Positions 11,027 through 15,589 of a stretch of 64,000 nucleotides of DNA are shown one piece after another; the first letter of the stretch is position 1; each line of letters starts with the position of its first letter. The notes beneath the pieces are model-generated. The model saw nothing but the letters and a program-made list of their open reading frames with translations, was not told where the DNA came from and did not search any database. The position numbers and the translations under genes are program-made. The DNA is taken from contig NZ_NEQV01000005.1 of assembly GCF_002799245.1 (NCBI RefSeq), positions 248,001 to 312,000 on the forward strand, read 5' to 3'. The stretch is from Stenotrophomonas maltophilia (GTDB lineage Bacteria; Pseudomonadota; Gammaproteobacteria; Xanthomonadales; Xanthomonadaceae).

Positions 11027-12940
11027 ATGGCTTCACCCTGGCGGGACAGAATCCTCGGCCTGATGCCGCGTTCAGCCATCGTCTGCCACGACCTCTTCAT
11101 GGTCTGGGCATGCTGGCAGTTGCTCCATGCAGGGCGTTACTCGATCCTGCCCAACGCCCCGGCGCTACCCCTGTGGAACGTCGATACCACGCTGGTGCTG
11201 CTGCTGCAGGGCCTGGTGTTCTGGCGCGTGGGCCTGTATCGCGGGCTGTGGCGGTTCGCCAGCGTCAGTGACCTGCTGAACATCTTCAAGGCCAGCTTCA
11301 TCGGCATGGTGGCCATCGTCCTGGTGCTGATGTGGAAGCGCTTCGACGGCGTACCGATGTCGGTGCTGGTGATCTATCCGTTCGCGCTGTCGGCACTGCT
11401 GGGCGCGCCGCGCCTGCTGTACCGGGCCTGGAAGGACTACCAGGCACTGCAGTCCGATTCCAGCGCCCGCCGCGTGCTGATCCTCGGCGCCGGCCAGGCT
11501 GCCGAAACCCTGGTGCGCGACCTGCGCCGTTCCGGCGACTTCGAGCCGGTCGGCCTGCTCGACGATGCACCGCACCTGCGTGGTGCCAAGCTGCAGGGCC
11601 TGCCGATCCTCGGCACCCTGGATGACGCGCCGACGGTGGTCCGGGAGACCGCCGCCAAGCTGCTGGTCATCGCCATGCCCTCGCTGGACGCGGCGGGCAT
11701 GCAGCGCGTCGTTGCGATCTGCGAAAGCACCGGCGTGCCGTTCCGTACCGTGCCCAAGCTCAGTGACATCCTCCAGGGCCAGTCACTGCCGGGCCAGCTG
11801 AAGGAAGTGGCGATCGAGGACCTGCTGGGCCGCAAGCCGATCATGCCGGACTGGAACCTGATCCGTGGCTGGCTGGGTGGCCGCACCGTGATGGTCACCG
11901 GCGCCGGTGGTTCGATCGGCTCGGAGCTGTGCCGGCAGTGCGCACGGCATGGTGCTGGTCGCATCATCCTGCTGGAGATCAGTGAACTGCTGTTGCTGAC
12001 CATCGAAGGCGAGCTGCGGCGCAGCTTCCCCGATGTCGAGATCGAGGCGGTACTGGGCGATTGTGGCGACCCGGCGGTGATCCGCCACGCGCTGTCGCTG
12101 CACCCGGTCGATACCGCTTTCCATGCGGCCGCCTACAAGCATGTACCGGTGCTGGAACGCCAGCTGCGCGAAGCGGTGCGCAACAACATCCTGGCGACCG
12201 AGAACGTCGCCCGCGCATGCCTGGAAGCGCGCGTGGAGCATTTCGTGTTCATCTCCACCGACAAGGCGGTCGACCCGGTCAATGCGCTGGGTGCGAGCAA
12301 GCGCTACGCCGAGATGATCTGCCAGAGCCTGGACCAGAAGTCCACGCATACCCGTTTCGTCACCGTGCGCTTCGGCAATGTGCTGGCGTCGGCCGGCAGC
12401 GTGGTGCCGCTGTTCCGCGAGCAGATCCTGCGCGGCGGCCCGGTCACGGTCACTGACCCGGAAGTCAGCCGCTACTTCATGACCATCCCCGAGGCCTGCC
12501 AGCTGATCCTGCAGGCGGCCGCATCGGCGTCGCATGGTGCGATCTACACCCTGGACATGGGCGAGCCGGTGCCGATCCGCGTGTTGGCCGAACAGATGAT
12601 CCGCCTGACCGGCAAGCAGCCGTACAAGGACATCCAGATCATCTATACCGGCCTGCGTCCGGGCGAGAAGCTGCACGAGACGCTGTTCTATTCGGACGAA
12701 GACTATCGGTCGACGGCGCATCCGAAGATTCTCGAGGCCGGCGTACGTACGTTCTCGCGGGACCTGGTGCTGGGCAACGTGCCGCGCCTGCGTGAGGCGA
12801 TTGCCGATTACGACACCGCCAGCATCCAGGAAATCCTGTTTGCGACGATGCCGGAGTTCTCGCCAATCGAACAGGATGCTTACATTTCATCCGCTAAAGT
12901 CGTGCCTTTTCCGGCACGTGAGGCCAACAGGCACCAATGA
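11027..12940 (+). CDS. CapD/WbpM-type nucleotide-sugar epimerase/dehydratase
   Basis: A 637-aa protein of the long FlaA1/WbpM family. An N-terminal region with about four membrane helices is followed by a Rossmann CoA-binding-like domain (VLILGAGQAAETLVRDL), then the catalytic SDR domain starting about residue 285 (VMVTGAGGSIGSELCRQ). Such enzymes are UDP-GlcNAc 4,6-dehydratases supplying sugars for O-antigen. In the active-site segment TDKAVDPVNALGASKRYAEM the lysine is K425; the residue four before it, Tyr in classical SDRs and Met in WbpM, is Leu421 here. Its stop overlaps galU by 4 nt. Confidence 0.9.
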   Translation: MASPWRDRILGLMPRSAIVCHDLFMVWACWQLLHAGRYSILPNAPALPLWNVDTTLVLLLQGLVFWRVGLYRGLWRFASVSDLLNIFKASFIGMVAIVLVLMWKRFDGVPMSVLVIYPFALSALLGAPRLLYRAWKDYQALQSDSSARRVLILGAGQAAETLVRDLRRSGDFEPVGLLDDAPHLRGAKLQGLPILGTLDDAPTVVRETAAKLLVIAMPSLDAAGMQRVVAICESTGVPFRTVPKLSDILQGQSLPGQLKEVAIEDLLGRKPIMPDWNLIRGWLGGRTVMVTGAGGSIGSELCRQCARHGAGRIILLEISELLLLTIEGELRRSFPDVEIEAVLGDCGDPAVIRHALSLHPVDTAFHAAAYKHVPVLERQLREAVRNNILATENVARACLEARVEHFVFISTDKAVDPVNALGASKRYAEMICQSLDQKSTHTRFVTVRFGNVLASAGSVVPLFREQILRGGPVTVTDPEVSRYFMTIPEACQLILQAAASASHGAIYTLDMGEPVPIRVLAEQMIRLTGKQPYKDIQIIYTGLRPGEKLHETLFYSDEDYRSTAHPKILEAGVRTFSRDLVLGNVPRLREAIADYDTASIQEILFATMPEFSPIEQDAYISSAKVVPFPAREANRHQ

Positions 12941-13815
12941 GCAAGCGAATTCGCAAAGCAGTTTTTCCGGTGGCAGGCTTGGGGACGCGTTTTTTGCCGG
13001 CAACCAAGACTGTGCCGAAGGAGATGCTGCCGATCATTGATCGGCCGCTGATCCAGTACGCCGTGGATGAAGCCATTGAAGCCGGCTGCGACACGCTGGT
13101 GTTCATCACCAACCGCTACAAGCACGCGGTCGCCGACTATTTCGACAAGGCCTACGAGCTGGAGCAGAAGCTCGAGCGCGCTGGCAAGCAGGAACAGCTG
13201 GAGCTGATCCGCCACGTGCTGCCCAACGGCGTGCGCGCGATCTTCGTGACCCAGGCAGAGGCCCTGGGCCTCGGGCACGCGGTGTTGTGTGCCAAGGCGG
13301 TGATCGGTGACGAGCCGTTTGCCGTGCTGCTGCCCGACGACCTGATCTGGAACCGGGGTGCCGGCGCGCTGAAGCAGATGGCCGACCTCAACGAGGCCAG
13401 TGGCGCCAGCGTGATCGCGGTCGAAGACGTGCCGCACGAGAAGACCGCCAGCTACGGCATCGTCGCCACCGAGGCATTCGATGGCCGCAAGGGCCGTATT
13501 TCGCAGATCGTCGAGAAGCCGAAGCCGGAGGACGCGCCGAGCGACCTGGCCGTGGTGGGCCGCTACGTGTTGAGCCCGAAGATCTTCGACCTGCTGGAAC
13601 AGACCGGCAGCGGTGCCGGTGGCGAGATCCAGCTGACCGATGCGATCGCGCAGCTGCTGAAGACCGAAGAAGTGGATGCCTATCGTTTCGAAGGCACCCG
13701 GTTCGACTGCGGCACGCATCTGGGTCTGGTGGAGGCGACGATCCGCTTTGCGCTGGACAACCCGAAGCTGGCAGGGCCGGCGCGGGAGAAGCTGGCGGCG
13801 ATGTTGGCGGAGTAA
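12937..13815 (+). CDS. galU: UTP-glucose-1-phosphate uridylyltransferase
   Basis: A 292-aa nucleotidyltransferase making UDP-glucose for LPS core, capsule and glycan synthesis. The N-terminus KAVFPVAGLGTRFLPATKTVPKEMLPIIDRP holds the nucleotide-binding G-x-G-T-R and K motifs; PFAVLLPDDLI is the metal-binding region and GEIQLTDAIAQLL the conserved C-terminal block. The ATG overlaps the capD stop (ATGA), indicating translational coupling in the polysaccharide operon. Confidence 0.96.
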   Translation: MSKRIRKAVFPVAGLGTRFLPATKTVPKEMLPIIDRPLIQYAVDEAIEAGCDTLVFITNRYKHAVADYFDKAYELEQKLERAGKQEQLELIRHVLPNGVRAIFVTQAEALGLGHAVLCAKAVIGDEPFAVLLPDDLIWNRGAGALKQMADLNEASGASVIAVEDVPHEKTASYGIVATEAFDGRKGRISQIVEKPKPEDAPSDLAVVGRYVLSPKIFDLLEQTGSGAGGEIQLTDAIAQLLKTEEVDAYRFEGTRFDCGTHLGLVEATIRFALDNPKLAGPAREKLAAMLAE

Positions 13816-13862
13816 GGGTTTTTCGAGCGTTCCGTTCGCGGCGCTTTGATTGATACGTGATG

Positions 13863-13968
13863 GGCGGGACGGGTGGGCCTTTGCAGGACACGCCGTAAAC
13901 CCGTCCATGGGGGCTCGATGGCGCCATCCATGGCGCCAACGGTCCTGCAAAGGCCCACCCGTCCCGCC
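13863..13968. repeat. Palindromic element A: 26-bp perfect arms around a conserved 54-nt core
   Basis: Left arm 13863-13888 and right arm 13943-13968 are perfect inverted complements (26 of 26). The 54-nt core at 13889-13942 has two internal hairpins of the form N-CATCCATG-N or close variants; one, at 13918-13935, is GGCGCCAT-CC-ATGGCGCC. The same core, inverted and with two changes, occurs in element B, but with completely different arms. It lies 47 nt past the galU stop. Confidence 0.9.
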
Positions 13969-14025
13969 TGTCGGGTTTCCCGCTGGCGCGGACGGGAAGG
14001 GCGGAATCAAGGGCAAGGGCAAAAG

Positions 14026-14054
14026 CAAAAAAGGCAGCCTATGGCTGCCTTTTT
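14026..14054. terminator. Bidirectional terminator between galU and fadA-like gene
   Basis: A-run, GGCAGCC-TAT-GGCTGCC, T-run. With As upstream and Ts downstream it can end transcripts from both convergent genes. Confidence 0.8.
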
Positions 14055-14059
14055 GCGTT

Positions 14060-14098
14060 GGGGTCAGATCCCTTTGCGCAGCAAAGGGATCTGACCCC
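14060..14098. repeat. 18-bp palindrome of the GGGTCAGATCCC family
   Basis: GGGGTCAGATCCCTTTGC and its perfect inverse flank a 3-nt loop. Related sequence occurs in the nested palindrome at 29043-29137, so this is a dispersed repeat family in this genome. Confidence 0.8.
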
Positions 14099-14146
14099 GG
14101 CTCTTGCCTTGTCTTTGCTCACCCTTCCGCCGCGGGGAGGCTGGAA

Positions 14147-14254
14147 GGGCCGGGTTGGCAGGGCTGCCTGGGACCGTTGGCGCCATGGATGGCGCCATCG
14201 AGCCCCCATGGATGGGTTCACGGCGTGTCCCGGGCAGCCCTGCCAACCCGGCCC
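14147..14254. repeat. Palindromic element B: 27-bp arms around the inverted 54-nt core
   Basis: Left arm 14147-14173 and right arm 14228-14254 pair over 27 positions with one non-Watson-Crick position. The core 14174-14227 is the inverse complement of the element A core apart from two substitutions. The arm sequence (GGGCCGGGTTGGCAGGGCTGCC...) shares no obvious similarity with the element A arms. It ends 36 nt before the fadA-like stop. Confidence 0.9.
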
Positions 14255-14289
14255 ACGCCACGAAGCCCAACGAGGCAACGCCTTGAACC

Positions 14290-15498
14290 TTACAGCGCCT
14301 CGAAAATACCCGCTGCGCCCATGCCGGTGCCGATGCACATCGTCACCATGCCGTACTTCTGCTGGCGACGACGCAGGCCGTGCAGCAGGGTGGCGGTACG
14401 GATCGCGCCGGTCGCGCCCAGCGGATGGCCCAGGGCGATGGCGCCACCCAGCGGGTTGACCTTGCTCGGGTCCAGGCCGCAATCGCGGATCACCGCCAGC
14501 GACTGCGCAGCGAACGCTTCGTTCAGTTCAATCCAGTCCAGCTGGTCCTGGGTCAGGCCGGCCTGCTTCAGGGCCTTCGGGATCGCGGCGATCGGGCCGA
14601 TGCCCATCACTTCCGGGCGCACGCCGGCCACCGAGAAGCTGACGAAGCGGGCCAGCGGGGTCAGGCCGTAGTCCTTGATCGCCTGCTCCGAGGCCAGCAG
14701 CACGGCGCCAGCGCCATCGCTCATCTGCGACGAATTGCCGGCGGTGACGGTGCCGCCGAACTGGCCGTTGCGGAACACCGGGCGCAGCTTGGCCAGGCCT
14801 TCAGCGGACGAGTCCGGGCGCGGGCCTTCGTCGGTGTCGGCGATCCTGTTGCGGGTGATGATGCGCTGGCCATCGGCCAGGTCCGGCAGGTGCGAGACGA
14901 TTTCGTACGGGCTGATCTCGTCCTTGAACTCGCCGTTCTGGATCGCGGCCATGGCCTTCTGGTGCGAGGCCAGGGCGAAGGCATCCTGGTCTTCGCGCGA
15001 GACCTTCCACTCTTCAGCGACCTTCTCCGCGGTGATGCCCATGCCGTAGGCGATGGCCACGTGGTCGTTATCGAACACGCTCGGCGCCATGGCGATCTTG
15101 TTGCCCATCATCGGCACCATCGACATCGATTCGGTGCCACCGGCCAGCATCAGGTCGGCGTTGCCCAGGCGGATCGCGTCGGCGGCCTGCGCCACGGCCT
15201 GCAGGCCGGAAGAGCAGAAGCGGTTCACGGTCTGTGCGGCGATGGTGTTCGGCAGGCCGGCCAGCAGCACGCCAATGCGCGCCACGTTCATGCCCTGCTC
15301 GGCTTCCGGCATGGCGCAGCCGATGATCGCGTCATCGATGCGGTTGACGTCCACGCCCGGAGCCTGGGCCACGACGCTGCGCAGCACGTGCGCAAGCATG
15401 TCGTCGGGGCGGGTGTTGCGGAACATGCCCTTGGGCGCCTTGCCAACCGGAGTGCGGGTGGCGGCGACGATGTAGGCGTCCTGGATTTGCTTGGTCAT
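14290..15498 (-). CDS. fadA: Acetyl-CoA C-acyltransferase (thiolase)
   Basis: A 402-aa thiolase. C95 in NRFCSSGLQA is the acyl-accepting nucleophile, LGHPLGATGA carries the catalytic histidine, and C388 in MCIGTGMGAAG is the second cysteine. It cleaves 3-ketoacyl-CoA in the last step of beta-oxidation. The frame is open upstream, but the ATG at 15498 (MTKQIQDAYIVAATRTPVGK) is the family start and has GAGAG about 10 nt before it. It follows the fadB-like gene, with 91 nt between them containing one REP monomer. Confidence 0.93.
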   Translation of the reverse strand: MTKQIQDAYIVAATRTPVGKAPKGMFRNTRPDDMLAHVLRSVVAQAPGVDVNRIDDAIIGCAMPEAEQGMNVARIGVLLAGLPNTIAAQTVNRFCSSGLQAVAQAADAIRLGNADLMLAGGTESMSMVPMMGNKIAMAPSVFDNDHVAIAYGMGITAEKVAEEWKVSREDQDAFALASHQKAMAAIQNGEFKDEISPYEIVSHLPDLADGQRIITRNRIADTDEGPRPDSSAEGLAKLRPVFRNGQFGGTVTAGNSSQMSDGAGAVLLASEQAIKDYGLTPLARFVSFSVAGVRPEVMGIGPIAAIPKALKQAGLTQDQLDWIELNEAFAAQSLAVIRDCGLDPSKVNPLGGAIALGHPLGATGAIRTATLLHGLRRRQQKYGMVTMCIGTGMGAAGIFEAL

Positions 15499-15523
15499 TG
15501 CAGTGATCTCTCGAATAGGTTTT

Positions 15524-15547
15524 GTAGAGCCGAGCCATGCTCGGCTG
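15524..15547. repeat. Single SMAG (GTAG) REP unit
   Basis: GTAGAGCCGAGCCATGCTCGGCT is one GTAG-headed palindrome without a partner. It lies inside the presumed transcript between the fadB-like and fadA genes, where it could affect relative mRNA levels. Confidence 0.75.
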
Positions 15548-15589
15548 CCACAGCAGGAAGCGCCGGCCTGCGCCGGCACCCACCATCAA

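Follow-up and report, generated by a model that had tools for sequence, protein, structure and literature searches.

The intergenic region between galU and fadA of Stenotrophomonas maltophilia harbours two facing palindromic elements, A and B, with a common core and unrelated, self-complementary arms, which raises the question of what kind of element this is and what keeps its arms paired. Based on the window (the whole stretch of 64,000 nucleotides that was analysed) and on comparison with related genomes, we give roughly even odds (probability about 0.5) to the reading that A and B belong to a structured repeat found dispersed in genomes and similar in kind to YPAL/RU-2 and TwoAYGGAY, a putative RNA with paired CsrA sites.

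The core of element A (13863..13968) is read on the plus strand and its folding strand was judged to be the minus strand of the window; element B (14147..14254) is inverted, with the core reading on the minus strand and the plus strand judged to fold. Both cores span 52 nt (A: 13890..13941, plus; B: 14175..14226, minus), not the 54 nt originally predicted, and they differ at two positions, as had been claimed. Each core is enclosed by an outer stem, P1, formed in A by a 5' arm (13863..13889) and a 3' arm (13942..13968; both plus strand) and in B by 14227..14254 and 14147..14174 (5' and 3' arm in the core reading, respectively; both minus strand). The near-perfect pairing within each element and the lack of relationship between the two sets of arms were described correctly, whereas their lengths are 27–28 nt and not 26 and 27 bp, and the innermost four bases, GGAC, are common to both. 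Across the inner 26 arm pairs, A shows 26/26 Watson–Crick pairs, and B shows 25/26 plus one A.C. On either strand, both elements fold with an energy far below that of shuffled sequences (z −8.7 to −10.9). A 21-nt piece of the core gave four matches at ≤3 mismatches, covering both elements on both strands, compared to 0.01 expected; it matches both strands because it is near-palindromic. These results confirm that the shared core and paired arms of A and B are real and not a chance similarity.

In order to place the two elements in their genome, the core was searched with BLAST, yielding 46 matches in the own genome, some of which are fragments of one copy. A covariance model (R1) built from 34 copies (alignment A1) returned 77 matches at E ≤ 1, including 59 full-length ones at E ≤ 4.1e-11. 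Of the 77, four were dropped (two echoes on the reverse strand and two weakly matching fragments), leaving 73 copies, and at least three further copies lie outside this set (C1:563323, C2:847119, C9:53839). The own genome contains about 75 copies, A and B included. Within the genus, 31/41 genomes matched R1 at E ≤ 1e-4 and 10 had no match, with several genomes carrying at least 102 scored candidates; at order level, 55/200 genomes matched at E ≤ 0.001. A second model (R2) from 22 diverse sequences (alignment A2) matched 47/274 genomes of a class sample at E ≤ 1e-5 and, at the same threshold, 15/200 genomes of a phylum sample; all 15 belong to the same class or nearer, in a sample whose share of genomes from other classes is not evident from the output. 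Among the matches listed, a core-pattern scan found Xanthomonas, Marinobacter, Shewanella, Alteromonas, Vibrio, Microbulbifer and others. The repeat family is spread over the Gammaproteobacteria. The original description as a “modular mobile or structural element” therefore stands as far as structure and dispersal are concerned; mobility, which has been published for YPAL, is what we infer here from indirect evidence.

Comparison of the copies revealed a three-way junction, in which P1 forms the outer stem, variable in sequence, and P2 and P3 are hairpins whose paired positions covary. P2 pairs core positions 3–5 with 23–25 and 11–13 with 20–22 around a five-base bulge, while P3 pairs 27–28 with 51–52 and 30–36 with 43–49. 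Pair statistics place P2 of element A at 13892..13914 (minus strand, loop 13903–13908) and P3 at 13916..13941 (minus strand, loop 13926–13931, reading AUGGAU on this strand); in B, P3 occupies 14175..14200 (plus strand, loop 14185–14190) and P2 occupies 14202..14224 (plus strand, loop 14208–14213). In alignment A1 (34 rows), 94.4% of cells were paired compared to 35–47% in slid controls, with two-sided changes at 27/37 pairs; the corresponding values for A2 (22 diverse rows) were 95.6%, 38–46% and 23/27, and since rows of both alignments were picked with paired arms, the counts for P1 lean in this direction. Against shuffled alignments, two of the measures were less clear-cut: the count of further pair types was matched by 34/500 shuffles in A1 and 132/500 in A2, and the value for pairs with two-sided change in A2 was reached by 13/500. 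In the pattern scan, certain core letters were fixed, among them 3, 4, 13, 20, 24–26 and 36–43, and position 27 was restricted to C or T. The pair 28–51, free in this pattern, occurred as GC in 132, TA in 25, AT in 7, CG in 5 and another combination in 4 of 173 cases; the pair 27–52, of which only position 52 was free, occurred as CG in 111, TA in 60 and otherwise in 2 (n = 173). The lower-P2 pairs 4–29, 5–28 and 6–27, which had been used in A1 and R1, were replaced, as 27–52 and 28–51 covary instead.

Further sequence is found nested within the hairpins and beside the arms. In ten own-genome copies, P2 is interrupted by roughly 80 nt of inserted sequence, and several relatives contain an insert in P3; folding of two P3 inserts showed AGGA loops on the folding strand in two of their three extra hairpins. 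These modules of about 80 nt comprise two or three hairpins nested in the P2 or P3 loop, and they occur in the relatives L097, L098, L102, L105, L115 and L120. Outside the palindrome, a CTTCGACAG or TCTGACAG box often stands just past the 3' arm, and the 5' arm is often preceded by (GCAACA)n-like runs and a GCAGGGC palindrome. Given these flank boxes, the repeat may extend beyond the palindrome.

The original prediction had offered two explanations for the arms, namely that their pairing is selected or that the arms are rebuilt around the core by an active process. Among the 59 full-length copies of the own genome, arm sequences fell into clusters of 21, 19 and 8 with 11 singletons, A and B among the latter. 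Since 48/59 copies belong to three arm classes, the arms are mostly copied along with the core, and free rebuilding is not supported in the form proposed. At several Xanthomonas loci, the plus and minus copies bear two different recurrent arms. Orthologous comparison was based on the galU–fadA site in 30 loci of the genus, where other species carry different arm alleles. Paired arms were found by script in 22/27 readable A slots, with one (L123) decayed to 16/26 pairs, and in 21/26 readable B slots, of which 18 were well paired and three were mismatched-arm hybrids (L101, L103, L119). Manual sorting gave three arm alleles at A (11, 7 and 4 loci) and two at B (13 and 5) in addition to the three hybrids; by eye, hybrid-looking arms were also present at A in L097 and L115, and most of A was lost in L109 and L110. 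Across ten alleles of the type that A has in the window, 8 of which are distinct, Watson–Crick swaps on both sides occurred at 5/26 arm pairs and 7/260 arm cells were unpaired, which supports maintenance of arm pairing, whether through selection or through correction. The arm-pairing score was passed by 209 of 228 distinct core-matched sequences and failed by 19. The existence of mismatched-arm hybrids shows that pairing is favoured, not absolute. Taken together, arm pairing is maintained and arms move as one with their core, although they can be exchanged or disrupted when recombination occurs within it.

A different origin of the arms would be the insertion of the core into pre-existing palindromes, which then become its arms. 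Targets of YPAL reportedly span or adjoin dyad symmetry (PMC2229807), and this would fit such a scenario. However, searching 168 arm pairs without the core in 2.17 Mb, a set that leans to element neighbourhoods, gave two matches, one inside another copy and one a chance match by eye, and neither was a convincing core-less palindrome. As the arms, moreover, recur with the core as classes, we regard this origin as highly improbable. In the preferred reading, the sequences show the arms to be mostly subfamily tags carried with the core, which recombination within it can swap or break.

Next, we considered which strand folds. A folding strand tolerates G.U or G.T pairs and not A.C, so that an excess of A.C read on the CATCCATG strand indicates folding of the CATGGATG strand. 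Across 196 unique arm pairs, P1 mismatches read on the CATCCATG strand comprised 140 A.C and 26 G.T. The excess had the same direction in all four subsets, with A.C:G.T ratios of 18:7 in the own genome, 9:3 at the galU loci, 8:2 in genome G249 and 105:14 in the wide set among the matches listed. It was also found regardless of which way the 5' gene faces (37:4 and 58:9). Counted per sequence, A.C exceeded G.T in 89 versus 13 cases (p 4e-15, with sequences that are not all independent); the own-genome set alone gave 14 versus 5 (p 0.06, not significant). As the arm score rewarded G.T and penalised A.C, the filter opposed the observed excess. The P2 and P3 stems gave no strand signal (G.T 3 versus A.C 3, and 2 versus 3), such pairs being too few. 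An opposite bias (G.T 87 versus A.C 15) seen with the lower-P2 pairing that was assumed at first is explained by the true pairing being 27–52. Tolerance of G.T cannot distinguish RNA from single-stranded DNA.

The arrangement of the copies allows a further function to be weighed, that of an ordinary 3'-end hairpin whose stem, on either strand, would shield the end of the mRNA or delimit transcription. Such a role has been proposed for REP and YPAL repeats. In the own genome, 40/73 copies form 20 pairs less than 700 nt apart, and 20/20 pairs face inward; by eye, the extra copies C1:563323 and C2:847119 add two more inward pairs. A contrasting arrangement was observed at G701:C1:94432-95644, a head-to-tail array in which at least six matches, spaced by about 227 bp, share one orientation. 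The neighbouring genes of the 73 copies, as obtained from home-made and therefore rough ORF callers, were convergent in 28, divergent in 10 and tandem in 18 and 16 cases, with one undetermined. Both the preponderance of convergent over divergent placement and the frequent location 40–110 nt past a stop codon would be expected of a 3'-end hairpin. A plain clamp, however, would do without core conservation and without a strand preference, and we consider this function rather doubtful. A sense function in the 3' UTR, first favoured from the stop-codon distances, was weakened by the tandem-gene counts: next to co-directional genes, the folding strand was sense in 16 and antisense in 18 own-genome cases, showing no orientation preference, and in the wide set, among the matches listed, it was sense in 24 versus 38 and thus not favoured.

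In the window itself, galU (12937..13815, plus strand) and fadA (14290..15579, minus strand; coordinates of the longest ORF) are convergent neighbours of the pair, their names being taken from the original prediction. The spacer between A and B (13969..14146) contains a bidirectional intrinsic terminator (14028..14054) with a stem flanked by an A-run and a T-run, for which the terminator scan itself returned the minus-strand reading. It is this separate T-run terminator, present also in relatives by eye, and not the two elements, that holds the role of bidirectional transcription end originally assigned to them, and its presence between the window's genes likewise argues against a 3'-end role of the elements. 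The same spacer harbours a separate palindrome of a different repeat, GGGGTCAGATCCCTTTGC... (14060..14098), which is also found in the spacers of other pairs; this GGGGTCAGATCC... palindrome recurs within the spacers of inward pairs, as do GTCGACCTTGGTCGAC and GTAGATCCACGCCATGCGTGGAT, which are palindromic repeats as well. A sigma-70 scan of 13780–14330 found no promoter-like site. With the two elements facing inward, a transcript arriving from either flank passes through the farther one in its folding orientation; in the window, the terminator stands between each gene and the copy readable from that gene in this orientation.

Analysis of the hairpin loops points to the master regulator CsrA/RsmA as a possible protein partner. 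On the folding strand, the P2 loop fits CANGGANG, with the first N free, in 56/58 and the P3 loop in 55/58 own-genome copies (the 59 full-length copies minus one that is a base shorter), counts that are not wholly free of selection because the rows of R1 were picked by script with an ATCCATG-like piece. For P2, the strict form AYGGAY was found in 31/58 and C-ANGGAN-G in 56/58; among the matches listed for the wide set, the two P2-loop positions expected to be A, which the pattern had left free, were A in 125/125 and 122/125. Copies with an insert in P3 lose the P3 loop. We take CANGGANG to be the CsrA/RsmE recognition sequence. Paired hairpins with GGA in the loop, a feature of CsrA/RsmA-binding RNAs, are present in the element, and an earlier report describes CsrA hairpins as carrying GGA in the loop, generally in pairs (PMC4333381). 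A csrA gene was detected in 43/47 element-bearing versus 192/227 element-free genomes, a difference that is not significant (p 0.26), and one genome (G445, 98% complete) had nine element matches and no CsrA above the cut-off.

Judged from these sequence features, the folding strand probably acts as an RNA offering paired candidate CsrA sites. P1 would clamp the junction, its pairing kept and its letters free, while P2 and P3 would hold up two CANGGANG loops as a dual site for one CsrA/RsmA dimer. A transcript running through the element would thereby gain a candidate CsrA/RsmA site, which may alter its stability or titrate the protein. Several results weigh against this RNA role: beside tandem genes the folding strand is not preferred, the scan for sigma-70 sites was negative, the window's terminator lies between each gene and the copy readable from it, the csrA difference is not significant, and G445 has element matches but no CsrA above the cut-off.

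The strand-specific fold would also be expected if the folding strand formed a single-stranded DNA hairpin serving as substrate of a strand-specific transposase or recombinase; the loops would then be enzyme contacts and their likeness to CsrA sites incidental. REP/BIME elements are substrates of their Y1 transposases. Dispersal, the alternating arrays in Xanthomonas, the inward pairs described here and the absence of an orientation bias relative to genes would all suit such a substrate. A Y1_Tnp domain was found in 31/31 element-bearing versus 7/10 element-free genomes of the genus (p 0.011), which is suggestive only, and the occurrence of Y1 transposases in those seven element-free genomes speaks against a specific link. 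An unsystematic search of the flanking genes identified no linked gene. Comparison of genomic sites provided no clean empty site or target duplication either. In G249 (0.8 Mb), 10 slots were matched on both sides; of nine aligned slots, eight contained an element in some form (a different allele, a second copy or a partly deleted one), and only slot 43 was empty. In G019 (1.2 Mb), 12 slots were matched and 0/10 aligned slots held an element, with flanks that are 70–87% identical and hence too distant for clean boundaries. Genome-wide, G019 had one strong match; its galU–fadA region holds elements, is 93% identical to the corresponding region of the window and looks like a recombined import. 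Finally, the free N, the fixed A and the GGA of the P2 loop closely match CsrA recognition, which speaks against the loops being enzyme contacts. A role of single-stranded DNA in transposition is a serious rival to the RNA reading, albeit a somewhat unlikely one.

Comparing the repeat to known systems, it shares with REP/BIME elements, including SMAG, an extragenic location and alternating orientation, seen in Xanthomonas as plus and minus copies with two recurrent arms. REP elements are defined as 20–40 bp palindromes with a GTAG or CGTC tag (PMC3733652). In contrast, the repeat described here forms a three-way junction of about 106 nt without such a tagged unit, in agreement with the original claim that it is distinct from SMAG. 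A search of Rfam with positions 13800–14320 (E ≤ 10) returned microRNA-like chance matches and weak matches to Ysr224 and RsmW, and kinship became clear only from the runs with L214 and with whole genomes. Ysr224 (RF02770), a Yersinia sRNA, carries the core sequence on the strand opposite to the folding strand. It gave 75 matches in the own genome, of which 68 coincide with members of the set of 73 copies, without exception on the non-folding strand; three others fall on further known copies and four elsewhere (C2:913400, C9:217843, C8:130028, C6:90505). The best match reached 40.2 bits (E 1.7e-7), below the gathering score of 70. One of the four, G000:C2:913400-913505 (31.2 bits, E 6.6e-5), lies outside all known copies and is a possible diverged copy missed by R1. 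TwoAYGGAY RNA (RF01731, clan CL00106) shows a long, poorly conserved outer stem and two GGA-loop hairpins on the same strand as here, and differs in that the P2 loops of the present repeat follow the strict AYGGAY in about half of the copies only. Its eight own-genome matches comprise seven on the 73 copies, all seven on the folding strand, and one on a further known copy; the best score was 35.9 bits, with 33.9 for element A of the window, and the gathering score of 43 was not reached. Weak matches, none over the cut-off, also occurred in control genomes (Ysr224 9/14, TwoAYGGAY 1/14), so that a single weak match means little and it is the placement on the copies that counts. TwoAYGGAY has already been proposed as a CsrA-binding RNA with an ill-conserved outer stem (PMC4333381).

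A likeness in sequence also exists to YPAL/RU-2. The printed RU-2 has the same core on the folding strand, including both GGA hairpins (PMC2759123). Scored without gaps against a profile of 125 unique cores, RU-2 reached −6.8 compared to −27.4 for the best of 500 RU-2 shuffles, and remained below all 125 cores used (31 to 82); it has an additional base in P3 and a deviating letter in one loop position. YPAL/RU-2 elements are likewise intergenic, palindromic and dispersed, with internal inverted repeats as also seen in A and B, and YPAL is described as recently mobile, with target duplications of 3–26 bp (PMC2229807). They differ in having other arms and a unit of about 168 bp (130–169 bp) compared to the 106–108 nt of the palindrome, outside of which the conserved flank boxes stand. 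The YPAL descriptions, as far as consulted, do not mention inward-facing pairs, alleles of the arms or inserts in the hairpins, all of which occur in the present repeat.

Based on the core of RU-2 and the placement of Ysr224 and TwoAYGGAY matches on the copies, YPAL/RU-2, Ysr224 and TwoAYGGAY appear to represent a single family under three names. The literature searched, with subscription papers mostly outside it, contained no paper joining any two of YPAL, TwoAYGGAY, Ysr224 and the RU-2 repeat, and searches with core-sequence words and further literature searches returned nothing relevant to the repeat described here. Tentatively, and with somewhat less than even confidence, YPAL/RU-2, Ysr224, TwoAYGGAY and the repeats of Xanthomonadales and marine Gammaproteobacteria might form one superfamily of mobile dual CsrA/RsmA sites that rewire a global RNA regulon. 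If so, this ancient superfamily would be a selfish repeat with up to 100 or so copies per genome, and its long outer stem a mere clamp, free to change while paired. With dozens of copies placed at known sites in a Stenotrophomonas genome, the seeding of a CsrA/RsmA regulon by a mobile DNA repeat becomes a directly testable question. TwoAYGGAY, an orphan RNA motif, would gain an origin as a mobile repeat, while for YPAL, a known mobile repeat, it would become clear which strand folds and which protein is a candidate for binding it.
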